DNA of 64,000 nt, from positions 1-64,000 of the forward strand of contig NZ_JANJOU010000003.1 in assembly GCF_024594815.1 (NCBI RefSeq), in the 5' to 3' direction. Positions 13,911-64,000 of this stretch are shown here, piece after piece. Made by a program: the position numbers and the translations under genes. The notes under the pieces were generated by a model that was not told the DNA's origin, did not search any database, and saw only the letters and a list, made by a program, of their open reading frames with translations. This DNA is from Roseomonas populi (GTDB lineage: Bacteria; Pseudomonadota; Alphaproteobacteria; Acetobacterales; Acetobacteraceae). Within the stretch, counting starts at the first letter, position 1; the number at the start of each line of letters is the position of its first letter.

Positions 13911-14678
13911 TCAAATCACGTCCCGGTTCACGTCCTTGTAAAGGAGGTACTCACAGACCTCGTTCCCCGTCGCGTAGATCTGCTGCGGCACGTAGGGCCC
14001 CATCCACACGAAGTCGCCGGTCCAGAGCTCGTGCCAGTCCCGCCCCAGCAGCTGCAGCGCCTGCCCCTGGAGCATGACCATCCCGTGCTCCATCACATGC
14101 GTCTCGATGCACCAGAAATGGGCGCCGGGCGCGTAGCACATGATGTTCATCTCGAAGTCCATGGGCATCTCGCGCAGCCCGATGAGGCAGTACCGCCAGC
14201 GCGGCCCGCTCTCCTCCTTCAGCGCCGTGTCCCGGTGCCCGACGATGACCTTCGGCCGCGGCACGCCGGCCGCGGGCTGATAGGCCTTGCGGACCCAGAT
14301 GGCCCGCGCCTCCCCCTCCCCCGCATTCCGCACGGCGTAGGGCACGCCCTGCGGCACATAGACATAGGCGCCCACGCCCAGGGCATGGGTCTCCCCCTCC
14401 ACCGTCACCTCCAAAGCTCCGGCCTGGACGTAGAGGAAGGCCTGGACCCCCTCGTCCACCGCCCCGGCGCTGCCGGTCCCGGGCGGCAGGATCAGCATCG
14501 CCTGGGCGAAGCGCGCACCCATCTGCCGGCTGGTTTGGAAACGCACGACAACGCCCGGCCAGTTCGGCAGCAGGCTGTCCATGATCCCCTCGGGCGGGAA
14601 GACGCAGTAGTTCGGCGTCAGCATCGTCCGGTTGTGGCCGATGATGCCGGGCGGAGGGTTCGGAGTGGGAACGCGCAT
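13911..14678 (-). CDS. allE: (S)-ureidoglycine aminohydrolase
   Basis: Converts (S)-ureidoglycine to (S)-ureidoglycolate and ammonia in the allantoin branch of purine catabolism. The 255-residue product has two cupin domains (about 65-125 and 175-245). The second has ETHVMEHG and the later glutamine in PQQIY, matching the E-H-H-Q manganese site of the plant and bacterial enzyme. Overall similarity to E. coli AllE/YlbA is evident, including the ending DVNRDV. The gene interrupts the normally contiguous nusG-rplK order. A strong terminator precedes it and rplK has its own promoter, so it behaves as a separate unit. No other ureide gene is in the window. Confidence 0.88.
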   Translation of the reverse strand: MRVPTPNPPPGIIGHNRTMLTPNYCVFPPEGIMDSLLPNWPGVVVRFQTSRQMGARFAQAMLILPPGTGSAGAVDEGVQAFLYVQAGALEVTVEGETHALGVGAYVYVPQGVPYAVRNAGEGEARAIWVRKAYQPAAGVPRPKVIVGHRDTALKEESGPRWRYCLIGLREMPMDFEMNIMCYAPGAHFWCIETHVMEHGMVMLQGQALQLLGRDWHELWTGDFVWMGPYVPQQIYATGNEVCEYLLYKDVNRDVI

Positions 14679-15759: not shown

Positions 15760-15836
15760 TGGCAGGGGCGGAGGGTCTCGAACCCCCAACCTCCGGTTTT
15801 GGAGACCGGCGCTCTAGCCAATTGAGCTACGCCCCT
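15760..15836 (-). tRNA. tRNA-Trp (anticodon CCA)
   Basis: The cloverleaf closes with acceptor AGGGGCG pairing CGCCCCT, a D-arm GCTC..GAGC, an anticodon stem CCGGT/ACCGG with loop CTCCAAA and a normal T-arm. The discriminator is G and the 3' CCA is encoded. It is directly upstream of secE, as in many bacteria. Confidence 0.97.
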
Positions 15837-15899: not shown

Positions 15900-16520
15900 T
15901 CAGCCAACCGCCAAACGATGCCCCGTGGCCCCCAGCGCGGCGCCCCAGGCAACCGGATCGCCGCGCCATCCATGCCCGTCCGTCTCCGTCACGGTGATGG
16001 CCTCGATGCCCTCCGGCACCGCATCCGGCGGGTAGTTCACGGCCAGAAGGTGGAAATCTCCGCCCGGCGCCACCCCCTCCAGCGCCTCCCGCAGCCGCGC
16101 CAGCGCGGCCGGGTCGTCGCTCTTGTGCCGTTCCCGCACGTAGAGCACCGGCCCCTCCGCCGCGGCCTTCCGCATCCGCCCGGCGAGATTCGCGAATCGC
16201 CCGGCCGCTCCGGGGATGTGCTCCTCCCACCCCGCCAGGATCGGCTGCCCCTGGCCCGAGGGGAAATCGTGCTGGTGCAGGATGCCCAGGCGCGCGTTCC
16301 GCACGGTCTGGATCACCCCCTTGTCGTCCTTCACCGGCTTGAGCTGGGCGGCGTCGAAGACCCGCGCGGCGTCCAGCCCCTCCTCCAGGCAGGTGATCAG
16401 CCCGGCCAGGGGCAGGATGAACCAGTCGAAGGGGTACTTCCCCTCGTGTCCGAAATGCAGGCGCAGGTTGTGCGTCAGGCGGCAGCGGGAGCCGAGGGGG
16501 ATGACATGGCGGAATTCCAT
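15900..16520 (-). CDS. DUF1796-family putative papain-like protein
   Basis: A 206-residue product. The N-terminus (HVIPLGSRCRLTHNLR, then YPFDWF) resembles DUF1796, which was proposed by profile comparison to be a papain-like cysteine peptidase fold; the cysteine of GSRC would be the nucleophile. Members often lie in surface polysaccharide clusters. The start at MEFRHVIPLG directly follows the stop of the upstream KpsS-like gene, so the two are coupled. It is the last gene of the glycan cassette. Substrate unknown. Confidence 0.65.
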   Translation of the reverse strand: MEFRHVIPLGSRCRLTHNLRLHFGHEGKYPFDWFILPLAGLITCLEEGLDAARVFDAAQLKPVKDDKGVIQTVRNARLGILHQHDFPSGQGQPILAGWEEHIPGAAGRFANLAGRMRKAAAEGPVLYVRERHKSDDPAALARLREALEGVAPGGDFHLLAVNYPPDAVPEGIEAITVTETDGHGWRGDPVAWGAALGATGHRLAVG

Positions 16521-16522
16521 GC

Positions 16523-17635
16523 TCAGCGCGGCACCCTCTCCATGTAGTCCTGGCACAGCACGCGCAGCACAGCCCGCTGGAAGGAAACCGGGTCGCGCGT
16601 GTCGATCCCGTACTGGTTCAGCGCCAGGAACAGGTAGCGCCGGATGAAGCCCGGATCATGCCCCGCCACCGCCGTGGCCAGCGCGGCGGGCGCCGCATCG
16701 GGGTCGGCCAGCTCCGTTGCCGCCACCCGGTACTCGGCCTTTCCCGCCGCGACCACGGGCTTCCCGTGCAGCAGCGCCTCGAACCCCACCCCGGAATTGA
16801 CGGTCAGCACCGCCCGCGCCCGCGAGATGAGCGCGTGGACTGATGCCCGGCTGACCGAGACCGGCCCCTCCGGCAGTGCCTCCAGGAAGCGGCCTACCGC
16901 TGGGTCCTTGCAGTGCGGGTGGCGCTTGATCACCACCGGCACGCCGGCCCCCGCCAGGGCCGCGACCATGCGCCTCACCCCATCCAGGTAGGGCGCCTCG
17001 AAGAGCTTCAGCGCGATCACCGAATCATTTGGTAGTTGAAGGGGCAGGAAAATGAACCCCTCCCCCTCCACCGGCACGGAGGCGTCCTGCCGGTACTTGG
17101 ACCGCCCCTCGGCCAGCCAGGGCCGGGTCCGCGTCTCGTGGAAGGCATCCGCGATGGCGGCATCCACCGCCAGCACGTCCCGCCGCTCCAGCCCCGCCAG
17201 CTCCGACCAGCCGGAATAGCCCAGCCGGTCGAAGGAGAGCATGTGCGGCAGGGCACCGGCCTTGTAGTGCCAGCGGCCCGTCGCCTTGCCGTTGCTGTGC
17301 CAGGTTAGCCGGACCGGCGGCCTCTCCGCATCGCCCCCGGGCAGCGGCTCGTGCGGGGAGTGCAGGAGCAGGGGCGCGTTCGCCTCCGCCAGCACCGGCA
17401 ACACCCCGTCCCGCAACTGCCGGTATTCCGGCGCCTCCACCCGGTGCGCCATGGTCCAGAGCGGCCGCGTCACCCCCTGCAGGATGCGGATGGCGGGCAT
17501 GGGGTCCGCCACGCGCCAGGTCTCGCGGACCATCTTGCGGACCACCGGCCAGAAATCCGTCCGCCCCTTCCAGAACACCGCCTCCAGCGCCGCCCCTTCG
17601 GGGATCGCCAGCGCGGATTCATCGGTCAGGGGCAT
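16523..17635 (-). CDS. Capsular polysaccharide KpsS/LipB-like protein
   Basis: The 370-residue product has no signal peptide and looks like a GT-B-type enzyme. Its C-terminal half carries KRHPHC and LTVNSGVGFEALLHGKPVV, a pattern of the capsule-synthesis family (KpsC/KpsS/LipB), whose members transfer Kdo or related sugars to lipid carriers of capsule. Donor and acceptor cannot be predicted. The start MPLTDESALAIPEG is 8 bp after the RDD gene stop; an upstream in-frame extension overlaps that gene and is less likely. Confidence 0.7.
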   Translation of the reverse strand: MPLTDESALAIPEGAALEAVFWKGRTDFWPVVRKMVRETWRVADPMPAIRILQGVTRPLWTMAHRVEAPEYRQLRDGVLPVLAEANAPLLLHSPHEPLPGGDAERPPVRLTWHSNGKATGRWHYKAGALPHMLSFDRLGYSGWSELAGLERRDVLAVDAAIADAFHETRTRPWLAEGRSKYRQDASVPVEGEGFIFLPLQLPNDSVIALKLFEAPYLDGVRRMVAALAGAGVPVVIKRHPHCKDPAVGRFLEALPEGPVSVSRASVHALISRARAVLTVNSGVGFEALLHGKPVVAAGKAEYRVAATELADPDAAPAALATAVAGHDPGFIRRYLFLALNQYGIDTRDPVSFQRAVLRVLCQDYMERVPR

Positions 17636-17643
17636 GGCGCGCC

Positions 17644-18075
17644 TCAGTCCCGCGGGGGCGGGTCCTGCACCACCAGGGTGCGGGCCAGCCGGTCGTGCCA
17701 GCACTGCCGGCGCGGGTCCCAGAGCATCCAGAGATAGCCCAGCCCCAGCGGAAGGCCGGAGACGATGTAGCCGATGTAGCGGGCCACCAGCCGCGGAAAG
17801 GGCGGCATACCCCCCGTATCGGCATCCACGACCCGCAGCCGCATGACCAGCTTGCCCGGCGTTGCCTGCCGCGTGACCCAGAAGAGGAGGATGATGAGCG
17901 CGGAGATGAGCTGGAGCAGCAGGTCCGCGCCGGGCGAGAGGTCCTGCCCGCCGCGAAGCCCCTCTCCCATCACGGAGAGGATCAGCCCCAGCGGCAGCAT
18001 CCAGGCGGCATCGATCAGCTGCGCCGCCACCCGCGGCCAGAACCCGGCCAGCTCCACACCGCGCCCATCGGACAT
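17644..18075 (-). CDS. RDD-family membrane protein
   Basis: A 143-residue integral membrane protein with three to four hydrophobic segments. The N-terminal arginine/aspartate signature (FWPRVAAQLIDAAW) and a later TPGKLVMRLRVVDADTG block are typical of the RDD family. Function of the family is not settled; some members are cation/proton antiporters. It lies 73 bp downstream of the ABC exporter and 8 bp upstream of the KpsS-like gene, so it may be part of the same transcript. Confidence 0.82.
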   Translation of the reverse strand: MSDGRGVELAGFWPRVAAQLIDAAWMLPLGLILSVMGEGLRGGQDLSPGADLLLQLISALIILLFWVTRQATPGKLVMRLRVVDADTGGMPPFPRLVARYIGYIVSGLPLGLGYLWMLWDPRRQCWHDRLARTLVVQDPPPRD

Positions 18076-18148
18076 GCCGCCCTCCACCCCGGCTCTTCTC
18101 CGTGGCGCGGCGGGGCTTGTCCAGCCCTGCCGTCGGCGCCCTGCGTCG

Positions 18149-19984
18149 TCAGCCCACCGGCTCCGGCGCTTCCAGCAGGGCGCGCCACGGCCCGGGCCGG
18201 GCGGCCAGCTCGGCGGGGGATCCCTGCTCCCGCACCTGCCCCTCGCCCACCACAACGATCCGGTCGAAGCCCCGCAGGGTGGAGAGGCGATGCGCCACCG
18301 CGATCACGGTGCGCCCGCGCATCAGCCGCTCCAGCGCCGCCTGCACCGCCTCCTCGGATTCCGTGTCCAGGGCGGAGGTCGCCTCGTCCAGCAGCAGGAT
18401 CGGCGCGTCCTTCAGCAGGGCGCGGGCGATCGCCAGCCGCTGCCGCTGCCCGCCGGAGAGACGGGCGCCGCGCTGCCCCACCTCCGTCCGGAAGCCCTGC
18501 GGCAGCGCCTCGATGAACTCCCGGCAGTGGGCGGCCTCGGCGGCGCGCAGGACCTCCGCATCCGTCGCGTCCGGGCGGCCGTAGCGGATGTTCTCCAGCA
18601 CGGACCGCTGGAACAGGGAAACATCCTGCGGCACCACCGCCAGCATGGCCGCCAGGCTCGCCTGGGTGGCGCCGGCGATATCCTGCCCGTCGATCAGGAT
18701 GCGCCCGGATCCCGGCGCCCCAAGCCGCTGCAGCAGCGCCAGCGCCGTGGACTTGCCCGAGCCGGAGCGCCCGACCAGCCCGACCCTCTCCCCCGGCGCG
18801 ATGGAGAGGTCGAAGTGCCGCAGCACGTGGCCGCTGCCGGGATAGGCGAAGGAGACGTCCTGGAAGGACACGGCCCCGCCCCGCGCACTGATCGGCGCCG
18901 CGTCCTCCCGGTCAGCCAGGGCATGCGGCACCAGCAGCGCCCGCACCGCCTCGGACAGGCGCGCGACGTGCTGGGTCAGCTCCACCAGCGCCACAGCCAG
19001 ATCGCGGGTGCCGTGCAGGATCACGAAGCCCAGGCCGCAGGCCATCACCACGTCGCCCGTGGTCGCCCGCCCGGCCTGCCAGAGCAGCAGCGCCCAGCAG
19101 AGCAGCCCCACCGTCAGCGCCACCGTCGCCACGGCATGGGCCAGGCGCAGCTTTTCCAGGTAGCGCAGGCTGCGCTTGCGGGAGGCGACCTCCTGCCCGA
19201 CCGTCGTGCCGAAGCGCTGGCGCTCCCGGATCGTGGCGCCGAAGGCGCGGACGAGGCCGATGTTCTGCACCACGTCCACCAGTTCCCCATCCACCGCCGC
19301 GGCTTTCGCGGCGTAGTCCTGGTGCAGGTCGCGCCCGCGCCCGGCGGCCCAGGTGAGCAGCGCGGCCATCCCGGCGGCGATCGTGAACAGCACCCCGGCC
19401 ATCACCGGATCCACCCCCGCCAGGAAGGCGATGGCGACGCAGACCGCGACCATGGGCGGCAGCGCGTTCCAGGTGATGGTGGAGAGAACGGTCCAGGCGG
19501 CATTGGCGGTGGCGCTGATCCGCCCGGCCATCAGCCCCGGCGAGCGCTCCGCGAAGTAGTCCGGCGCGTGGCCTGAGAGGTGGTGGAACAGGTCCGAGCG
19601 CAGGTCGCCCGTAACCCGCGTGAAGCTGTCCGCTGCGATCCAGCCGCCGAGGCGCCAGAGGAGGTTGTCCCCCGCCACGATGGTCCCCAGCACGCCCAGC
19701 GCCATCCAGGGGGCGCCGCCCGCCCCGGGCCCGGCCGCGAGCGTGTCCACCAGGTGCTTCACCGCGTATTGCGAGCCCACGGAGCAGCCCACCGCCGCCA
19801 GCACGGCCGCCAGAACCACGGCGTGCGCCGCCCGGTGCAACAGCACGTAGCGCAGCAGGAAGGCGATGGGCCTCTCGGCATAGGGCAGCAGCGCCACACG
19901 GTCGTCCTGGGATTCGCGTGCAGGAGGGCGGACCAGGCTCTCGGGCCGGGTGGTCCGGGAAGCGCCGAAGACGGTTGCCGACAT
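18149..19984 (-). CDS. ABC exporter, fused permease and ATPase
   Basis: A 611-residue half-transporter of the MsbA/ABCB type. The N-terminal six-helix domain spans about residues 40-330. The ATPase domain has Walker A VGRSGSGKST, signature LSGGQRQR and Walker B ILLLDEATSALD. The start MSATVFGASR has an AGAAGGAC ribosome site; a longer in-frame extension runs into the divergent promoter region and is rejected. It probably exports a lipid-linked or peptide substrate of the cassette; the substrate is not deducible. Confidence 0.9.
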   Translation of the reverse strand: MSATVFGASRTTRPESLVRPPARESQDDRVALLPYAERPIAFLLRYVLLHRAAHAVVLAAVLAAVGCSVGSQYAVKHLVDTLAAGPGAGGAPWMALGVLGTIVAGDNLLWRLGGWIAADSFTRVTGDLRSDLFHHLSGHAPDYFAERSPGLMAGRISATANAAWTVLSTITWNALPPMVAVCVAIAFLAGVDPVMAGVLFTIAAGMAALLTWAAGRGRDLHQDYAAKAAAVDGELVDVVQNIGLVRAFGATIRERQRFGTTVGQEVASRKRSLRYLEKLRLAHAVATVALTVGLLCWALLLWQAGRATTGDVVMACGLGFVILHGTRDLAVALVELTQHVARLSEAVRALLVPHALADREDAAPISARGGAVSFQDVSFAYPGSGHVLRHFDLSIAPGERVGLVGRSGSGKSTALALLQRLGAPGSGRILIDGQDIAGATQASLAAMLAVVPQDVSLFQRSVLENIRYGRPDATDAEVLRAAEAAHCREFIEALPQGFRTEVGQRGARLSGGQRQRLAIARALLKDAPILLLDEATSALDTESEEAVQAALERLMRGRTVIAVAHRLSTLRGFDRIVVVGEGQVREQGSPAELAARPGPWRALLEAPEPVG

Positions 19985-20243
19985 GCAGAGTCCTTCTCGC
20001 CCGGTCCCGACGGAGCCGGGACGCGATCCTTCCGAGAGACGTGCCTTCCCTCCCCTTCCAGCCGCCGCGCGCGGCCGGACCGGCCCTTGCCGGGCCCTGC
20101 GGAAGGGCAAAGCGCCTGGAACGGCATCAGTTTCTGGCGGGATTGGGGTGCAACTGCCCCTTTTCAGCCGCATTCCCTGCGTTGGGAGGCAGAAGACAAG
20201 AAAAGTTAAGCGGCGGGAGGCGCCCCTTGCAGGAGAAGCCGTG

Positions 20244-21317
20244 ATGCGTATTGCCCAGGTTGCACCGCTGCACGAGGCCGTTCCCCCCAAGCTCTATGGC
20301 GGGACAGAGCGGATCGTCTCCTTCCTCACGGAAGCGCTGGTGGAGCGCGGCCACGAGGTCACGCTCTTCGCGACCGCGGACGCGGTGACGAAGGCGAACC
20401 TCGTCCCGATGCGCGACAAGGCCCTACGCCTGGACCCCACAGTTAGGGACTGCTGCGCCCCCCACATGCTGATGCTGGAGACGGTGGCGCGCCGGGCGGC
20501 GGAGTTCGACGCCATCCACTTCCACCTGGACTACCTGCCCTTCTCCCTCTTCAGCCGGCAATCCGTGCCCTGGGTGACGACGCTGCACGGCCGCCTGGAC
20601 CTGCCGGAGCTGGAGCCGGTCTTCGACGCCTTCCCGGAGGCGCGGGTGGTCTCCATCTCCGACGCCCAGCGCCGCCCCCTGCCCCGGGCCAACTGGGCCG
20701 CCACGATCCACCACGGCCTGCCGCGCGACCTGCTGACGCCCCAGGGGAGCCCATCCGGCGATGGCTCGGATGGATATCTCGCCTTCCTCGGCCGCATCTG
20801 CCCGGAGAAGCGGCCTGACCGCGCCATCAAGATCGCGTCCCTCTCCGGCGTGCCGCTGAAGATGGCCGCAAAGGTGGACAAGGTGGACGCCGAGTACTTC
20901 GCGAAGGAGATCGAGCCCCTGCTCGGCGGCGCCGACGTCGATTTCGTGGGCGAGATCTGCGACATCCGGAAGCCCGGCTTCCTCTCCGGCGCCCGCGCCC
21001 TGCTGCTGCCGATCGACTGGCCTGAACCCTTTGGGCTGGTGATGATCGAGGCAATGGCCTGCGGCACCCCCGTGATCGCCTATCCCGCCGGCTCCGTGCC
21101 GGAGGTGGTGGAGGACGGGCTGACGGGCTTCATCGTCCGCAACGAGGAGGAGGCCGCCGCCGCCGTGGCCCGGCTGCCCACCCTGGACCGCGCCCGCATC
21201 CGCCGCCGCTTTGAGGAGCGCTTCACCGCCGACCGCATGGCCGCGGACTACGAGGCGCTGTACGAGCGGATGATGACGGAGACCCGCCCGCGCATCCGTC
21301 TGGCCGCCGGGGACTGA
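20244..21317 (+). CDS. Glycosyltransferase family 4
   Basis: A 357-residue GT-B retaining glycosyltransferase. The N-terminal acceptor domain has PPKLYGGTERIV, and the donor domain carries the E-x7-E motif in EPFGLVMIEAMACGTPV. An AGGAGAAG ribosome site precedes the ATG at 20244; longer in-frame versions lack one. It is divergent from the ABC exporter across 259 bp. The sugar transferred is unknown. The gly-gly-thr sugar-nucleotide loop resembles members annotated in sucrose/trehalose-type or EPS pathways, so I leave it unnamed. Confidence 0.9.
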   Translation: MRIAQVAPLHEAVPPKLYGGTERIVSFLTEALVERGHEVTLFATADAVTKANLVPMRDKALRLDPTVRDCCAPHMLMLETVARRAAEFDAIHFHLDYLPFSLFSRQSVPWVTTLHGRLDLPELEPVFDAFPEARVVSISDAQRRPLPRANWAATIHHGLPRDLLTPQGSPSGDGSDGYLAFLGRICPEKRPDRAIKIASLSGVPLKMAAKVDKVDAEYFAKEIEPLLGGADVDFVGEICDIRKPGFLSGARALLLPIDWPEPFGLVMIEAMACGTPVIAYPAGSVPEVVEDGLTGFIVRNEEEAAAAVARLPTLDRARIRRRFEERFTADRMAADYEALYERMMTETRPRIRLAAGD

Positions 21318-21357: not shown

Positions 21358-22914
21358 CTACAGCGTTGCCTCCTGAAGGGGCGGTAGGGCCAGCCGGCCC
21401 TCCAGAGCCCGGCCCAGCGCTTCCTCCAGCCCCCAGGGCGCAAGGGTGAAGCGCTGGTGCCGCGCTGCCAGCGGGTCGTCCGCCGGCGGCTCGCCGATAG
21501 CCCGAGGATCCACGTCCGTCACGGTGGAGCGGTCAAGGTAATCCCAGCTCGCCCCGGCGCGGGGGTGATGAAAGGTGATGGTCGGCCGCCGCAGCAGCCA
21601 GGAAGTGATCATCGCCCCCGTGCCGCGTGTGGTCAGCGCCAGGTCGCAGCGGGCCAGCACCGGCACCTTCCCCGCCGCGGACCGGCCGAAGATCCGCATC
21701 TGCTCCGCCAGCGGCACCTCCAGCCCTTCCGTGATGGCGGCAGCCATGGCTTCGATCCGTCCCATCACCTCCTTGTCCTTGGGGGTGGGCGGGCCGGAAA
21801 GGGTCCAGCCGTCCCACACCACCTCCAGCTCCAGCCCCGCCGCCGCGCAGGCGGCGCCGAGGCGGCGGAGGACGTAGCGAAAAGCCTCCACCGCGTTCAC
21901 CACGCGCTGCCGCTCCGCATCCAGCGAGATCATCACTCGGAACCGTCCTGACGGTCCGGGCGGCACGCCCTCGATCAACGGTGCCAGCCGCACCGAGAGC
22001 CAGGCCGCGTCCGGATAGCCGCCGAAGCGATAGACGCGATGCGCGTCCAGCCCGGAGAGGAGGACGGTGTCCGTCAGGCGGTCGCTCCCCACGCTCAGCC
22101 GGTCCAACGACGCCAGGGTGGGAAAGACCGCGAAGGGGTCCATGGCGCAGAGGTCCGGCGCCACGAGCAGCATCCCGCCCTTCTCCCCGAAGCCGAGGAT
22201 GGCCGCCTCCTGCTCGTCCAGATAGGCCAGGCTCTGGCGGAGGTAGTGGCTCGGGCGGTTGTCGCCGATCAGAAAGGCCCGGCGCAGCCCGCCCCGCGTG
22301 GCCCGGCGGAGCCAGCCCGCCCAGGGCAGCGGGCGGAGCAGGAACCCTTCCAGCACGGTCCGCAGCGTGCCGCGCATGTCCAGCCGGAAATCGGTGAGGA
22401 CCAGGAAGAGCCGCTCAACCGGGTGGAACAGGCCCACGGGCATGTAGCCGATGGAGACCAGCAGGAGCAGCCGCCCCCCGTCCAGGCAGGGCGTGATCTG
22501 GAGGTGCTGGAACGGCACGCTGCCGAGGACCAGCGCCTCCTGCCCCGAAACCGGCGCGGGAATGCTGCGCCCGTCCTCATGCACCAGGAAGGCGGCGTTC
22601 AGGGCCTTGTAGCGGGCCATCCAGGTGCGGTGGGCGTAGGCGGCCCGGATCCGCCCGTGCAGCGCCTCGTCCTGGCCATGCGGCCCATCCCCGGGGCCGA
22701 GGGGGCCGAAGAGGTCCACCACCTCGCAGGCCGCGGTGAGGGCCGCTGGCCCGTACTTAGGGTCCGGCTCCCGCCCGGGGTAGCGGAAGTGCCGCAGGTC
22801 CAGCCCGCAGAGCGCGGCCATGTCGCGCGCCGCCCGCAGCGCCGCATCGCGCCGGGCCTGCCCTGAGAGCGCCGGCGCCGCGGGGATGATCGGGTCGGGG
22901 CCGGGTTCCTCCAT
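21358..22914 (-). CDS. Unnamed large protein, paralogue of the GT61-fusion C-terminus
   Basis: A 518-residue product that I do not recognise. From about residue 60 onward it aligns without major gaps to residues about 425-870 of the neighbouring GT61-fusion protein, with conserved blocks such as CEVVD..GPLGPG, APDLCA.DPFAV.P, MISLDA and [10 protein letters not shown]. The last block, with the preceding CDLALTTRGTGA, recalls the donor-site loop of GT-B enzymes, so a glycosyltransferase-like fold is an inference. No signal peptide or clear transmembrane helix. No good ribosome site precedes the ATG, so the start is uncertain. Confidence 0.75.
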   Translation of the reverse strand: MEEPGPDPIIPAAPALSGQARRDAALRAARDMAALCGLDLRHFRYPGREPDPKYGPAALTAACEVVDLFGPLGPGDGPHGQDEALHGRIRAAYAHRTWMARYKALNAAFLVHEDGRSIPAPVSGQEALVLGSVPFQHLQITPCLDGGRLLLLVSIGYMPVGLFHPVERLFLVLTDFRLDMRGTLRTVLEGFLLRPLPWAGWLRRATRGGLRRAFLIGDNRPSHYLRQSLAYLDEQEAAILGFGEKGGMLLVAPDLCAMDPFAVFPTLASLDRLSVGSDRLTDTVLLSGLDAHRVYRFGGYPDAAWLSVRLAPLIEGVPPGPSGRFRVMISLDAERQRVVNAVEAFRYVLRRLGAACAAAGLELEVVWDGWTLSGPPTPKDKEVMGRIEAMAAAITEGLEVPLAEQMRIFGRSAAGKVPVLARCDLALTTRGTGAMITSWLLRRPTITFHHPRAGASWDYLDRSTVTDVDPRAIGEPPADDPLAARHQRFTLAPWGLEEALGRALEGRLALPPLQEATL

Positions 22915-23087
22915 TCGCGCAAACTGGCAGGAGGGGTGGGAACGGGAAAGGGCGCGCCTCGGCCTGCGCAGAAGGCTTTACTAACCGGCCGCCAGCTCTC
23001 CGCACCGCACCCAGGCCCGCCGCATTTCCGGGACGAGGCTGTCGGGCGAGCGGATGCCTCTCCGACGCGTCGCGGACGAGGCCTCCG

Positions 23088-25736
23088 TCATCGGCCTTCC
23101 GGCGGCGGGTGGGTCGGGCGGATATCCAGCCGGGCACCAGCCGCGCGGCGCAGGGCGTCCTCCACGCCCCAGGGAGCGAGGAGGACGCGGTTCCCTCTGT
23201 CCTCCCCGGGGGCATCGGCGAGGGCACGGGGGTCGATCTCGTGCGCCGTGGCCTCGTCCAGCTCGACGCGCCGGGCGCCGTTGCGGGCCCAGGTGATGGT
23301 CGGGCGGCGCAGCAGCCAGGAGGAGAGCTGGGTGATGACGCCTTGCGCCGAGACGACGAGGTCGCAGCGCAGGATCTCCGGCAGCTTCTCAAGGGGGGAG
23401 AGGCCGAAGACGCGCCGCTGCTCCCCGATCGGGGCGTCCAGCCCGTCGAGGATGGCGGCGACGAGGGGTTCGGCACGCCCGGCGACCGTATCCGCCTCCC
23501 AGGGGCGCGCGGGGGCTGCCCAGGCATCCCAGACAAGGTCGAGGGCGCTGCCATCCCTCGCGCAGGCCTCGGCCAGGGTGCGCAGAAGGGAGCGGAGGGC
23601 TTCCGGCTCGTTCGCGGTGCGGCGGCCATCCGCGTCGAGGGAGATCATGGCGCAGTAGCGCCGCCCCGGCGGGGGCGGCGGGGCGGCGGCGATCAGCGGT
23701 GCGAGGCGGCGGCGCAGCCAGGCGGCGTCTGGGTAGAAGTTGGCGCGATAGACGCGGTGCGCGTCGTAGCCGCCCGCGAGCAGCGCGTCGGTGAGGCGGT
23801 CCCCGGGGAGGGTGAGGCGGTCGAGCTGGGCGAGAGAGGGAAGCACCGCGAAGGGGTCGAGGGCGCAGAGGTCCGGCGCCGCCACGAGAAGCCCGCCGTC
23901 GCGCACGAAGGCGCGGATCGCCGCCTCCTCTCGGTCGAGCCAAGCGAGGCTTTGGCGGATGAAGTGGCCGGGGTGCTGGTCGGCGATGACGAGGGCGCGG
24001 CGCAGGCCGGCGCCGGTGGCGCGGCGCATCCAGTCGAGCCAGAGGCCCGGGCGGGAAAGTAGGTGCTCGAGGAGGGTTCGCAGCGCGGCGCGCGGGTCGG
24101 GCGCATGGGCGGAGAGGACGAGGAAAAGGCTGTCGGCGGGGTGGTAGAGGCCGACCGGCACGGGGCCGAGGGCGACGAGGAGGAGTGGCCGGTCGCCGTC
24201 GAGAAGGAGCGACACCTGATACTGCCCCAGGGGCAGGCTGCCGAGCAGGGCGGCCTCCCCGCCGCTCAGGGGAGCGGGGATGTGCCGGTGCGGGACATGC
24301 GCGAGGAAAGCCTCGTTGAGCGCCCGGGCGCGCTCTAGCCAGGCCTTGCGCGCCCAGGCTGCGCGGATGCGGGCACGAAGAGCCGGGTCAGCGCCGTGCG
24401 GGCCAGCGCCGGGGCCGAGAGGGCCGAGGACGTCCACCACCTCGCAGGACCCGACCAGGGCGGCGGCGCCGGGCTTCGGGCGGGAAAACTGGCCGGGATC
24501 GATGCCGAGAAGGGAGGCGAGACCTTCGGCGGCGTCGCCCGCTACCGCCTTCTCGCGGCGGCGGGCGGCCTCCACGGCGTCGGTCCAGCCCTGCACGAGA
24601 CCCTGCGGCTCGGCCAGCAGGGCGACGCCGGCGGCGGTGCGCGCGACCGTCGCGGCATCGCCCTCGGGGTCGTGGTGGCGGTGCCGGAGCGTGGCGCGGT
24701 GGGCGATCCAGCGGCGGAGATCGAGGCGGGCGGCCTCGCGGAAGGCGCGGGCGTCCCAATGGGGGGCGAGGTCGATTCCGAGGCGCTCCCCGAGCATCGG
24801 GAGGAGACGGTCGGGGTCGAGGGCCGTGATGCCGGTGCCAGCATCGGGCAGGCCGTCGCGCCGCATTCCCTCCACCTGGCCCGCGGTTGCGTCGAGCCAG
24901 GCGGCGTCTGGGGAGCGCGCGGAGACGGCGGCCTCGGCCATGCGCTCCCCGGGGCGGCGAACGAGGACGTCGACGGACGCGGCGACGCGGCCGACAAGCT
25001 GCAAACCGTGCAGCGCGGACCCTTCGGAGAAGAGGAGGCGGCCGGCGGAGCGGTACAGGCGGATCTGCGCGGCGACCGGCAGGGCCTCGGGATGGGCCAC
25101 GACAACCCCGGCCGCGGCAAGGACGGAGTCGATGAAGGCCTCCCCCGCGATCCTGCCTTCAAGGCTCCGCGGCGTGACGCGCGCGCGGGAGAGGAGGACG
25201 GTGCGGCCGGCGAGGTCGGGGTCGGCCGGGCCGGCGACGGCAGCATCCAGCAGGTCGAGATAGGCGGGGTCGGGGGGCGGGCCGTGCATCCGCTCGGCCT
25301 GGGGGAGGACGTGGAGGGTGCGGACCGTCACCGGCTCCCGCACGAGAACGACGCGATCGCGCCCGACGCCCCAGGCGTCCAGGATGGCCCAGAAGAAGCC
25401 GGGCGGGCTGTCGCCACGCGGATCCGGCGTGAAGAGGAGTGGGAGGCCGGGCCAGCTTCGGGCGGAAGCGAGAATCCGCATGCCGAAATCGACGATCGCG
25501 TGGCCGAAATGGAAGCACCAGGGGCCGCACCAGGCGGCTTCCGCGATGGCGGGAAGAGGGCCGGCGGGCGGGTCGGGCGCGGTGTCGTAGGGAGTGGGGT
25601 GAAGGCCGCGGCAGTGGCGCGCGTCCACCTGGGCAGCGAAGTCGGGCCAGATCGGGCCGGTCTTCAGCTCGTGGGGCTCGGGCCTCCAGCCCATGGCGGC
25701 GGTCGGGGCGACGATGACGTCGCGAAAGCTCGGCAT
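23088..25736 (-). CDS. GT61 glycosyltransferase fused to an unnamed domain
   Basis: An 882-residue fusion. Residues about 1-330 resemble glycosyltransferase family 61, with [35 protein letters not shown] and [16 protein letters not shown]. Residues about 425-870 are the same domain as the free-standing 518-residue neighbour. A histidine/arginine-rich linker ([10 protein letters not shown]) lies between them. The ATG at 25734-25736 sits only 10 bp beyond a strong hairpin that follows tuf copy 2 and has no evident ribosome site; ATG at 25694 is an alternative. Probably cotranscribed with, or attenuated from, tuf. Confidence 0.82.
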
Positions 25737-25746
25737 CGCCGGAGAT

Positions 25747-25775
25747 GAGGAGGGGCGGCGGTGCCGCCCCTCCTC
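25747..25775 (-). terminator. Terminator-like hairpin after tuf copy 2
   Basis: A perfect 13-bp stem (25747-25759 with 25763-25775) with a 3-nt loop starts 7 bp after the tuf stop. It lacks a T-run on the minus strand (ATCT follows). It separates tuf from the GT61-fusion gene, whose start codon lies 10 bp further on. Confidence 0.65.
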
Positions 25776-25782
25776 GGTCGGA

Positions 25783-26970
<1,188 letters not shown>

Positions 26971-60281: not shown

Positions 60282-63200
60282 TCAAGCGCCATCCCGCCGC
60301 AGGTCCAGGCTCCGCGGCGCCTCGCGCGAGACCTCCAGCGGCGGCTCCCCCATCGGCCCCGGCGTGTGCCCGAAAGGCTGGAACCGGATGCGCCGCCGTG
60401 CCTCCGCCTCGTTCGCGTTGACAGGCAGCGTCTCGTAGTTCCGCCCGCCGGGGTGGGAGACGTGGTGCGTCAACCCGCCCAGGCTGCGGCCGGTCCAGCG
60501 GTCGTAGATGTCGAACACCAGCGGCGACTGCGCGCGCACCGTCGGGTGCAGGGAGGAGGGCGGGTTCCACGCCTTGAAGCGCACCCCCGCCACGTACTCG
60601 CCCTGGCGCTCCGTCGGTGTCAGCGGCACGGCGCGACCGTTGCAGGAGAGGACGAGGCGCTCCTCCACCCAGCCCGTGACCTTCGCCTGCACGCGCTCGG
60701 TGGAGCTGTCCACGTAGCGCACGGTGCCGCCGGCGGCGGGTTCCTCGCCCAGAACGTGCCAGGGCTCCAGCGCGTGGCGGACCTCCAGCCCCGTGCCGCG
60801 GACGGAGACCTCGCCGATTTGCGGGAAGCGGAACTCCAGGAACGGGGCGAACCAGGCGGGGTCCAGCGGGCAGCCCAGCATGGCCAGCTCGTCCAGCACG
60901 TCGTGGAAATCCTGCGCCACGTAGTGCGGCAGCATGAACTCGTCGTGCAGCCGCGTGCCCCAGCGCACCAGGCGGCGGTCATAGGGCGTATCCCAGAAGG
61001 TCGCGATGGCGGAGCGTAGCAGCAGCACCTGCACCGCCGACATGCGCGCGTGCGGCGGCATCTCCGCCGCGCGCCACTCCACCAGGCCGAGGCGGCCGGA
61101 GCTGCTCTCGGGCGCGTAGAGCTTATCGACGCAGAACTCCGTCCGGTGGGTGTTGCCCGTCATGTCCACCAGCAGGTTGCGGAACAGGCGGTCCACCAGC
61201 CAGGGCGGCGTCTCCACGCCGGGCTGAATGCGGGAGAAGGCGACCTCCAGCTCCGCCACGCTGTCCATCCGCGCCTCGTCCACGCGCGGGTGCTGGCTGG
61301 TGGGGCCGATGAACAGGCCGGCGAACATGTAGGAAAGGCTGGGATGGTTGTGCCAGAAGCCCAGCAGGGACTTCAGCAGGTCCGGCCGGCGCAGGAAGGG
61401 GCTCTCGGCCGGCGTCGCCCCGCCCATCACCACGTGGTTGCCGCCGCCCGTGCCGACATGGCGGCCGTCCAGCATGAACTTTTCGGAGGCCAGGCCGACC
61501 TGCCGCGCCTCCTCGTACAGCTCCTCCGTCCGCTGCACGCCCTCTGCCCAAGAGGCGTAGGGATGCACGTTCACCTCGATCACGCCCGGATCGGGGGTGA
61601 CGGAGAAGCTCATCAGCCCCGGATCGCGCGGCGGCAGGTAGCCCTCCAGGATCACCTTGCGCCCGGTCTCCTTCGCCGTCGCCTCCACGGCGGCGGCGAG
61701 ATCCAGCCAGTCCACCGCCTCATAGAGCGGCGGGAAGAAGACGTGGATGATCCCGCCACGCGCCTCCACCGTCAGCGCGGTACGGACCACGTCCGGGTCG
61801 CTCTTACCCACCTCCGGCGGGCTCTGCGGCACCGGCCGGAAGCCCTCCGCCCCGCCGGCATAGCTGGTGCCGTTGCCGGAGCCGGGCACGCGCTGGAAGG
61901 CCTGGTAGGGCGGCAGCGGCGCACCCGCCACGCCATCCGGCGGCGCGTGGTGCAGGCCGGGCGCGGGGTGGTTGCCCATGGGGCGTGCCAGGGCAGGGTG
62001 CGGCGGCAGCGGGGCGCGTGGCGCGAAGGGATCGGGCTCCACGTCGAAGTTATTTGCCGCGTCCGTCTCCGACATCCAGGGCAGGCTCTGAAGCGGCAGG
62101 CGGAAGCCGATGGCGCTGTCCCCGGGCACGAGGAAGAGGTGCTCGCCCCGCAGGAACCAGCGGCCGGATTGCCAGCGCCGCACCCCGTCGCGGAACACGC
62201 GGCGGATCGGCAGCACGCTGCCCACGGAAGCGGAAAGCCCCCCGCCGTAAACGCGCGCCAGCCGCGCCCGCTCCAACGGGTCGCGCAGCTTCGCGTCCTC
62301 CACCACCACGTTGGCGGGCAGGCGGTGCTCCCGCCACAGGTAGTAGTGGATGTCCTCATAGGCCGGGGTCACCAGCCCAGGGTCCACCTGCAGCCGCTCC
62401 GCCAGCGAGGCGGCGAAGCGCGCCGCGTCATCCGCCGTGGCGTTGTCCCTGTCGTCGTCGGAGGCCAGCAGGGACGGATCGCGCCACACCGGCTCCCCGT
62501 CCTTGCGCCAATGGCAGAGCAGCGCCCAGCGCGGCAACTGCTCGCCCGGGTAGTGTTTGCCCACCGCATATTGGAGGGCCGCCCCCGGCGCCCAGCGATC
62601 GGCCAGGCGGCGCAGCAGGCGGCCGGCATAGGCGCGCTTGGTCGGGCCCAGGGCGTCGGTGTTCCACTCCGCCGCGTCCATGTTGTCCGCGGCGATGAAG
62701 GTGGGCTCGCCGCCCATGGTCAGGCGGATGCCGCCCGCCGCCAGCTTGCGGTCCACCTCCCGCCCCTGGGCGAGGATCGCCTGCCACTGGGCTTCCGTGT
62801 AGGGCTTGGTGACGCGCGGCGTCTCCACCACCCGCTTCACGTGCATCTCGAAGCCGAACTCGGTTTCGGCCGGCTCCACCATGCCGGAGATGGGCGCGGC
62901 GGAGGAAGGCTCCGGCGTCGCCGCCAGCGGGATATGCCCCTCGCCCGTCAGCAGGCCGGAGGTCGGGTCCAGGCCGATCCAGCCGGCGCCGGGCAGGTAA
63001 ACCTCGGCCCAGGCGTGCAGGTCGGTGAAGTCCTCCGTCGGGCCCTGCGGCCCCTCCAGCGGCTTCACGTCCGGCACGAGCTGGATGAGGTAGCCGGAGA
63101 CGAAGCGCGCCGCGTAGCCCAGGTGCCGCAGCGCCTGCACCAGCACCCAGGCGCTGTCCCGGCAGGATCCCTTGCACTGGCCCAGCGTCTCCTCGGCCGT

Positions 63201-63704
63201 CCAGACGCCCGGCTCCATGCGGACGACGTAGGACACCTTCGCCTGAAGCCGCTGGTTCAGCGCGACCAGCATCCCCACCGTGGCCTGGCCCTCGTGCTGC
63301 GGCGTCTCGGCCAGGAAGGCGGAGAGAAGAGGCCCGGCGGGCTCCACGCGGCGGAAGGGCGCCAGTTCCGATTCCAGCACCGGGTCGTAGGCGAAGGGCC
63401 AGGTCTCGGCTTCCGGCTCCAGGAAGAAGTCGAAGGGGTTGATGGTGGCCATGTCGGCCAGCAGGTCCACGGTCACGTCGAAATGCGTCACGCGCTCGGG
63501 GAAGACCACGCGGGCCTGGAAATTCCCCTGCGGGTCCTGCTGCCAGTTCACGAAGTGGCCGGCGGGCTCGATCTTCAGCGAATAGGAAATGATGGGGGTG
63601 CGCGCGTGCGGCGCCGGCCGCAGGCGGATGACCTGCGGGCCGAGCGAGACCGGCCGCTCGTACTTGTAGCTGGTGCGATGCGTCAGGGCGACGTGCAGGG
63701 GCAT
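60282..63704 (-). CDS. Transglutaminase-like protein with DUF2126 domain
   Basis: An 1140-residue fusion. Residues about 1-290 have a transglutaminase N-terminal barrel (THRTSYKYERPVSLGPQ) and a transglutaminase core: catalytic cysteine in GQCKGSCRDSAW, histidine in DLHAWAEVYLPGAGW and aspartate in GLDPTSGLL. Residues about 300-1120 are the DUF2126 region (LTMGGEPTFIAADNMD, then a long C-terminal part). Such fusions occur next to an alpha-E/ATP-grasp pair in peptide-modification operons; that partner would lie outside the window if present. The start MPLHVALTHRTSY fits the family. Confidence 0.9.
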   Translation of the reverse strand: MPLHVALTHRTSYKYERPVSLGPQVIRLRPAPHARTPIISYSLKIEPAGHFVNWQQDPQGNFQARVVFPERVTHFDVTVDLLADMATINPFDFFLEPEAETWPFAYDPVLESELAPFRRVEPAGPLLSAFLAETPQHEGQATVGMLVALNQRLQAKVSYVVRMEPGVWTAEETLGQCKGSCRDSAWVLVQALRHLGYAARFVSGYLIQLVPDVKPLEGPQGPTEDFTDLHAWAEVYLPGAGWIGLDPTSGLLTGEGHIPLAATPEPSSAAPISGMVEPAETEFGFEMHVKRVVETPRVTKPYTEAQWQAILAQGREVDRKLAAGGIRLTMGGEPTFIAADNMDAAEWNTDALGPTKRAYAGRLLRRLADRWAPGAALQYAVGKHYPGEQLPRWALLCHWRKDGEPVWRDPSLLASDDDRDNATADDAARFAASLAERLQVDPGLVTPAYEDIHYYLWREHRLPANVVVEDAKLRDPLERARLARVYGGGLSASVGSVLPIRRVFRDGVRRWQSGRWFLRGEHLFLVPGDSAIGFRLPLQSLPWMSETDAANNFDVEPDPFAPRAPLPPHPALARPMGNHPAPGLHHAPPDGVAGAPLPPYQAFQRVPGSGNGTSYAGGAEGFRPVPQSPPEVGKSDPDVVRTALTVEARGGIIHVFFPPLYEAVDWLDLAAAVEATAKETGRKVILEGYLPPRDPGLMSFSVTPDPGVIEVNVHPYASWAEGVQRTEELYEEARQVGLASEKFMLDGRHVGTGGGNHVVMGGATPAESPFLRRPDLLKSLLGFWHNHPSLSYMFAGLFIGPTSQHPRVDEARMDSVAELEVAFSRIQPGVETPPWLVDRLFRNLLVDMTGNTHRTEFCVDKLYAPESSSGRLGLVEWRAAEMPPHARMSAVQVLLLRSAIATFWDTPYDRRLVRWGTRLHDEFMLPHYVAQDFHDVLDELAMLGCPLDPAWFAPFLEFRFPQIGEVSVRGTGLEVRHALEPWHVLGEEPAAGGTVRYVDSSTERVQAKVTGWVEERLVLSCNGRAVPLTPTERQGEYVAGVRFKAWNPPSSLHPTVRAQSPLVFDIYDRWTGRSLGGLTHHVSHPGGRNYETLPVNANEAEARRRIRFQPFGHTPGPMGEPPLEVSREAPRSLDLRRDGA

Positions 63705-64000
63705 GGGTCGGGCTTCACCGTCGTCAGGGCGCGAAGGGAACGGGGCAAGGCCATGCAAGCTTCACGCCCGGGCGGGAACCACGGCCGGGGCCGTGGCGGC
63801 GGCGGCCCCGCGCGGGGGCGATCGGCCGGCTGATAAACCGCGGCCGGGGCCCTGTCCAACGGCTTCGGCCCCGGATCGATGCCCCGGGGGAACATGCCCT
63901 TGCGCGAAATTTGCATGTGGCGGGATGCCACGGCCGCATGCCCGTGATCCGGGCGGCCCGGCTGCCCTCAACCCGGCATCCAGTTCCCGTGCAGCCCCTG
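63705..64000. other. Region upstream of the transglutaminase gene
   Basis: No gene seen on either strand. A candidate minus-strand promoter, TTGGAC (63854-63859) and TTATCA (63831-63836) with 17-bp spacing, lies about 127 bp before the start codon. Confidence 0.4.

Follow-up and report, generated by a model that had tools for sequence, protein, structure and literature searches.

A lineage-restricted protein family with a predicted GT-B fold, encoded beside tuf in Roseomonas and related Acetobacteraceae

The first 64,000 nucleotides of Roseomonas populi contig NZ_JANJOU010000003.1 (hereafter the window) contain two neighbouring genes whose products, of 518 and 882 amino acids (aa), share a module of approximately 490-500 aa, here labelled X. 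We consider it probable, at roughly three chances in four, that X represents a GT-B fold glycosyltransferase family of hitherto undescribed sequence, whose members would transfer a sugar onto a surface glycan produced by the surrounding island of genes between tuf and tRNA-Trp. In the proposed layout, an N-terminal region of about 200 aa lacking a match to a known fold precedes two Rossmann-like halves, with a candidate catalytic base at H223 (residues are numbered as in the 518-aa protein throughout). It is the sequence of X that is new, as the GT-B glycosyltransferase is an already known kind of enzyme.

Results

Both genes lie on the reverse strand, 173 bp apart, as open reading frames (ORFs) at 21358-22914, encoding the free-standing X protein, and 23088-25736, encoding the larger protein, confirming those reported in an earlier note on this DNA. 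In BLASTP, the 518-aa protein (residues 15-514) and the 882-aa protein (residues 387-876) share 260/503 identical positions (52%; E 3e-142). Hence the shared domain described in the note is real, and the blocks it quoted are present in this alignment, but it is longer than the ~450 residues given there, and the alignment, said to be unbroken, is nearly gap-free with 16 gap positions. The note's assignment of GT61 to the larger protein also stands: PF04577 (Glyco_transf_61) matches residues 77-244, in its front half, at 37.5 bits against a cut-off of 27, placing residues 1-386 (24579-25736) in GT61 by profile, while residues 387-882 (23088-24578) constitute the X half. No stop codon interrupts the joint of this GT61-X fusion, and both ORFs show a coding pattern of GC content at third codon positions (GC3), which is still high over the joint. 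A search of the whole window genome, the assembly of which is 96.9% complete in 43 contigs, found these two copies of X alone. The module also lacks a Pfam name, as had been remarked, the 518-aa protein matching 0 families at E<=1.

The evidence for the nature of X comes principally from its predicted structure. The AlphaFold2 model had a mean predicted local distance difference test score (pLDDT) of 89.2 and a predicted template modelling score of 0.84. Foldseek returned 13 PDB matches at E<=1e-3, including chains of WaaC (E 5.4e-6), trehalose-phosphate synthase and a Veillonella GT9 protein, all of which we take to be GT-B enzymes. In the VIA comparison, the best match was the Veillonella GT9 structure 3tov (Z 14.2; 254 residues aligned; root-mean-square deviation, rmsd, 4.7), followed by WaaF (1psw, Z 14.1), WaaC (Z 12.9) and TibC (Z 11.3), with Z>=8 for 186/999 chains. 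Therefore residues ~209-509 (21388-22290, reverse strand) are taken as a GT-B fold, in that structure comparison finds the two facing Rossmann-like domains of this class in the predicted model. The preceding residues 1-208 (22291-22914, reverse strand), composed of helices and a beta-sheet, were also predicted with a pLDDT of 89.6 when folded alone, and matched no solved structure (best Foldseek E 0.55, best VIA Z 4.7); this missing PDB match does not show that the fold is new. Against viral protein structures, the X model gave five weak matches at E<=1e-3, three of them with glycan-enzyme names.

The second line of evidence is the pattern of conserved residues in the GT-B part. Conservation was counted over 16 aligned rows, omitting a weak match from genome G705, with a separate count of invariance over 17 rows. 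Eight polar residues (H223, R296, D332, R337, N340, D368, D380 and K416) were kept in 16/16 rows, including the fused copy, and a further four (R220, D254, D259 and E334) in 15/16, while P265, K416, G431 and P444 were invariant over 17 rows. In the predicted secondary structure, the N-half has its RPxH motif (220-223) between the first strand and the next helix, which it starts; in the C-half, DAERxRxxN (332-340) comes after the first strand, WDGWT (367-371) after the second and G431 after a later strand. The conserved polar residues of X thus fall near ends of predicted strands, where GT-B enzymes hold their donor and acceptor. H223 is a candidate catalytic base by its likeness to H166 of POMGNT2 (PMC13123520).

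This module has a narrow distribution. A search with an alignment of 12 X sequences found it in 13/397 sampled genomes of the family Acetobacteraceae; within the genus, 7/15 genomes matched. One of the 13, the G705 match (residues 311-450, E 2.8e-6), aligned poorly and lacked RPxH and WDGW, and was excluded from the 16-row and 12-genome counts. The window genome was the sole match in a phylum sample of 398 genomes, and was accompanied in a class sample of 385 genomes by a single short doubtful match (G444; 68 residues, E 3e-4), which was taken as chance; a class search with the protein of the distant member G124 found the window genome alone (1/289). No relative was found in viral contigs by a peptide-pattern scan with the 518-aa protein, in plasmids with the 518-aa or G124 protein, or in phages with the 882-aa protein. 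As far as sampled, the family is restricted to Acetobacteraceae, with distant relatives elsewhere possible, as these genome searches were samples in which a loose first pass left few candidates scored per genome.

The architecture of X varies between the 12 genomes with strong matches. A single X is present in 8/12 (G633, G632, G202, G637, G152, G729, G717 and G124), including Pararoseomonas indoligenes (G633), the orthologue of which is 74% identical to the free X of the window and lies at the same site. Two copies are joined as X-X in one ORF in R. rosea (G003) and P. baculiformis (G630), and G774 has two separate divergent copies. The combination of GT61-X with a free X was found in the window genome only (1/12), and the fused-plus-free pair that the earlier note had proposed checking for in relatives is one local variant, not the rule. 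As the like halves of the two X-X proteins pair in the tree (C-halves fully supported at 99/100; N-halves at 86/99, under the tool's star), the doubling of X probably precedes the split of these two species. The GT61-fused X instead sits on a long branch with no firm sister. A stand-alone homologue of its GT61 half, 54% identical, is encoded elsewhere in P. baculiformis (G630:C19), with none in the other genomes of the 15 searched in the genus; hence the fusion appears to have arisen in one lineage by the joining of two complete genes.

The island containing both genes spans ~10 kb of the window, between tuf upstream (encoding EF-Tu; 25783-26970, reverse strand; identified by Pfam GTP_EFTU domains and synteny) and tRNA-Trp (15760-15836, reverse strand; ARAGORN). 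Beyond GT61-X and X, it comprises a GT4 family glycosyltransferase (20244-21317, forward strand; Pfam Glycos_transf_1 and Glyco_transf_4; start chosen by the analyst), and four genes on the reverse strand. These encode an MsbA-like ATP-binding cassette (ABC) exporter (18149-20014; identified by Pfam, with NCBIfam MsbA_rel and MsbA_lipidA best but both below their cut-offs; start chosen by the analyst), an RDD family membrane protein (17644-18072; PF06271; start uncertain), a Capsule_synth protein (16523-17704; PF05159, 37.9 bits against a cut-off of 20) and a 218-aa protein with a weak DUF1796 match (15900-16556; 19.9 bits against a cut-off of 23). The Capsule_synth protein carries the motifs QLPND and KRHP, present in 5/5 orthologues compared, itself included, and is a candidate transferase of the KpsC/WbbB/KrkA type, using ulosonates activated with cytidine monophosphate (CMP).

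The position of X is shared by most of its hosts. In 9/12 genomes, X (in the window, GT61-X) directly follows tuf as its downstream neighbour, in the same orientation, within the stretch running tuf - tRNA-Trp - secE - nusG; tuf, nusG and secE were confirmed by Pfam in the window. The exceptions are G717, G774 and G124. Among genus genomes without X, tblastn with the window proteins showed this interval to be empty and a few hundred bases long in G236, G159 and G102, to contain the RDD gene alone in G634, G636 and G631, and to contain GT4, ABC and RDD genes in G635, while that of G629 was cut by a contig end. Judged by the called starts, the distance from tuf to X is 7-109 bp in the nine genomes. 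In the window, the gap between tuf and the fusion gene is a GC hairpin (25737-25782, reverse strand; -32.0 kcal/mol) that is terminator-like, here without a T run. As such a strong hairpin fills the called gap in 6/9 genomes, read-through from tuf was not assumed, and co-transcription of the two genes was set aside; G202 has part of the hairpin, and the gap is only 7-8 bp in G152 and G729.

Several other features of these regions were observed. In R. rosea, GT4 and X-X are separated within the tuf/tRNA-Trp interval by genes for an SBP_bac_5 solute-binding protein and a peptidase M20 (L027:5604-8560, forward strand). A 255-aa Cupin_2 protein is encoded between rplK and nusG in the window (13911-14678, reverse strand), with a homologue in the same place in 7/15 loci examined. 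Two EF-Tu genes (1-1188 and 25783-26970) with equal Pfam scores occur in one 27-kb stretch of the window, bracketing rpsG, rpsL, the L1 and L11 genes, nusG, secE and the glycan island; rpoB, rpoC and rplJ/rplL, named by recognition only, presumably also lie between them. At 60282-63758 (reverse strand), transglutaminase-like and DUF2126 (putative amidoligase) domains are encoded in a single ORF of 1158 aa.

Genes that may bear on the donor sugar were found near X in some of these genomes. A cytidylyltransferase gene is present in 5/12: G637, G152, G729, G774 and G124. In G637, it lies 10 bp beyond X, downstream and in the same orientation. In G152 (L028:5781-7766, forward strand) and G729 (L118:5817-7838, forward strand), a CTP_transf_3 domain is fused to an RraA-like aldolase, in ORFs with overcalled starts, and the gene adjoins one for a TylF-type methyltransferase; these may represent, within the tuf/tRNA-Trp interval, a pathway for an unusual ulosonic acid. 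As the only other genes identified in this interval are those encoding RDD, CTP_transf_3-RraA and TylF, X is its sole glycosyltransferase candidate. In G774 (L119/L120), the X copies are ~30% identical to their best matches and the cluster, which adjoins tRNA-Ser, contains NeuB, KdsB-like, FkbM methyltransferase, inositol-monophosphatase-family and TPR genes. G124 has two cytidylyltransferase genes, one of which is beside KdsA (KdsA and KdsB-like at 17182-18752), and a run of HMGL-like aldolase, HAD phosphatase and PseF-like cytidylyltransferase genes (L029:250-3233, reverse strand) that resembles a pathway of the 3-deoxy-D-manno-octulosonic acid (Kdo) type in its order of activities. The same tblastn queries found no cytidylyltransferase in 254,068 bp of loci without X (L052-L099), a control comprising 8 tuf loci (117 kb) and 40 pieces of ~3.4 kb, such that the comparison is locus-based rather than a genome-wide rate.

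Discussion

These results are best explained by X being a glycosyltransferase of a surface-glycan locus. The suggestion of the earlier note that these proteins act in glycan assembly is supported by the predicted GT-B fold, and by an island that also encodes a GT4 enzyme, an MsbA-like exporter and a Capsule_synth protein, although its idea of a donor/acceptor or partner pair is not. Where X is joined to another X, or to GT61, a single protein would carry two transferase modules, which could allow it to attach two sugars one after the other, as dual-module KpsC does. What the data establish directly is the family, its synteny, its architectures and its predicted fold; catalysis, the role of H223 and the glycan target are inferred. 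X looks like a GT-B glycosyltransferase, without assignment to any one CAZy family.

Multiple observations weigh against this assignment. Firstly, no significant match to X was found in Pfam, NCBIfam, PHROGs or PDB sequences. A Pfam scan of 10 X members at E<=5 returned three families only, in one member each (best E 0.16), with neither the GT9 profile (PF01075) nor the GT61 profile (PF04577) matching any of them, and the best E value of X or its profile against PDB sequences was 0.56. Secondly, hhalign comparisons were not significant with either 14 rows of GT61 (17 loci giving 16 ORFs, minus one wrong-frame and one poor row; E 0.057-0.24) or 24 rows of GT9, from 25 loci (E 0.033-0.22), and were outscored by a nusG control (E 0.007-0.017). 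However, this test has little power, as known GT-B families also missed each other (best GT61-GT4, E 0.014); X found its own distant G124 member at 99.1%. The column-shuffle control had outliers up to 137.6, and its counts of 2/60 and 1/60 were not used as evidence. Thirdly, the clustering of conserved residues was read off predicted secondary structure, rather than from measured distances. Fourthly, the fused copy, on its long branch, is changed at R220 and in WDGWT. Fifthly, GT-B folds also occur in proteins other than transferases, with UDP-GlcNAc (uridine diphosphate N-acetylglucosamine) 2-epimerases and Asp1 both at Z 10.9 in the VIA comparison. Finally, X lacks motifs of some known transferases. 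According to PMC12887879, (K/R)xHP is the CMP-binding motif of CMP-sugar transferases (GT29/38/42/52/80 and GT99/107/140) and QxxxD the nucleophile motif of the retaining Kdo transferases (GT99/107/140). The former is absent from 16/17 X rows, the single RSHP belonging to the G124 protein, where it lies in the N-terminal region (residue 112), and the latter is not conserved, and hence X does not fit the retaining Kdo transferase motif. Literature searches on Roseomonas glycosyltransferases, and on tufB or secE with glycosyltransferases, returned nothing on X, a nameless family being unsearchable by name.

A sharper form of the glycosyltransferase assignment, which we hold tentatively and at somewhat less than even odds, specifies the donor as a CMP-activated 2-keto-3-deoxy sugar, whether Kdo-like, nonulosonate-like or derived from an RraA-type aldolase. 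This is suggested by the contrast between the five X loci with cytidylyltransferase genes and the control loci with none, and by the QxxxD and KRHP motifs of the Capsule_synth neighbour in the window. Yet this neighbour, in both the window and G637, could itself be the user of the CMP-sugar, and X has neither motif. Furthermore, no cytidylyltransferase gene was found in the other 7/12 loci, including that of the window; G152 and G729 belong to a single genus and share a single site; the kdsA/kdsB-like pair of G124 and the KdsB-like gene of G774 may be housekeeping; and the control covers 8 tuf loci and 40 pieces rather than a genome-wide background. More doubtful is an extended version in which X would be a new family of CMP-ulosonate transferases that binds CMP without (K/R)xHP, has an N-terminal fold unmatched in the PDB, and, in some Acetobacteraceae, uses a non-standard 2-keto-3-deoxy sugar made by the RraA-like aldolase-cytidylyltransferase fusion, with the X-X and GT61 fusions generating two-step polymerising enzymes.

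It is improbable that X is instead a divergent branch of GT61, which would make the 882-aa protein a combination of two distantly related GT61 modules. The R-x-x-N stretch and glycine loop of the C-half are GT61-like, and hhalign sets this loop on the glycine loop of GT61; POMGNT2, a GT61 enzyme, gave the longest VIA alignment among the 50 matches listed (260 residues, within 102-508; Z 9.6; rmsd 5.8); and some relatives' GT61 proteins show SR...RR..NQEE and EQ..LF. PMC13123520 describes an N-R-R triad for binding uridine diphosphate in GT61, together with a His at the third position after the N. By motif reading, which sets the register, RPxH of X has an Arg at the N place, R337 is present, but L331 rather than Arg occupies the SR place. 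In addition, PF04577 was unmatched in the 10 members, hhalign scored GT61 no better than its controls, and GT9 structures scored above POMGNT2 (Z 14 versus 9.6).

Less probable again is a GT-B fold protein that is not a transferase, either an epimerase-like enzyme or a non-catalytic partner resembling the Asp1/Gap proteins of accessory secretion, Asp1 not being known to catalyse a reaction. Both types of structure resemble the X model, and the fused copy has its long branch and its changes at R220 and in WDGWT; nevertheless, GT9 enzymes score ~3 Z units higher, the eight polar residues are intact even in the fused copy, and the island already resembles a transferase and export locus. That the fused and free X form an obligate pair, as their adjacency on one strand in the window might suggest, is the least probable explanation, being largely refuted by the survey, with GT61-X in 1/12 genomes and a single X in 8/12.

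X adds to the known glycosyltransferases an unnamed, lineage-restricted and probable GT-B family, with clear candidates for catalytic residues and with two-module forms that occur naturally. In Roseomonas-like bacteria, the interval between tuf and tRNA-Trp emerges as a place where surface-glycan genes vary between species, and the CTP_transf_3-RraA neighbours of X suggest that an unusual acidic sugar may exist, one open to a chemical search.

The nearest solved folds to X are those of the GT9 heptosyltransferases WaaC and WaaF (PF01075), at Z 12-14 over 237-254 residues, although sequence identity is only 9-14%, the GT9 profile does not detect X, and X has an additional ~208 N-terminal residues. 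GT61 enzymes (POMGNT2 and EOGT) share the GT-B fold and some similar C-half residues, and a GT61 module is fused to X in the window, whereas neither PF04577 nor hhalign significantly links the families. FlmG, described in PMC7591256, is a GT-B-like flagellin glycosyltransferase of the Caulobacter pseudaminic acid pathway; its N-terminal half is formed of TPRs, to which X has no match, but it too is an alphaproteobacterial GT-B-like enzyme, and nonulosonate-type genes are found near X in some genomes. KpsC (GT107) differs from X in its QxxxD and (K/R)xHP motifs, but this dual-module beta-Kdo transferase, described in PMC10148158, has two transferase modules per polypeptide, as would X-X and GT61-X, and a gene with KpsC-type motifs is present in the same island.

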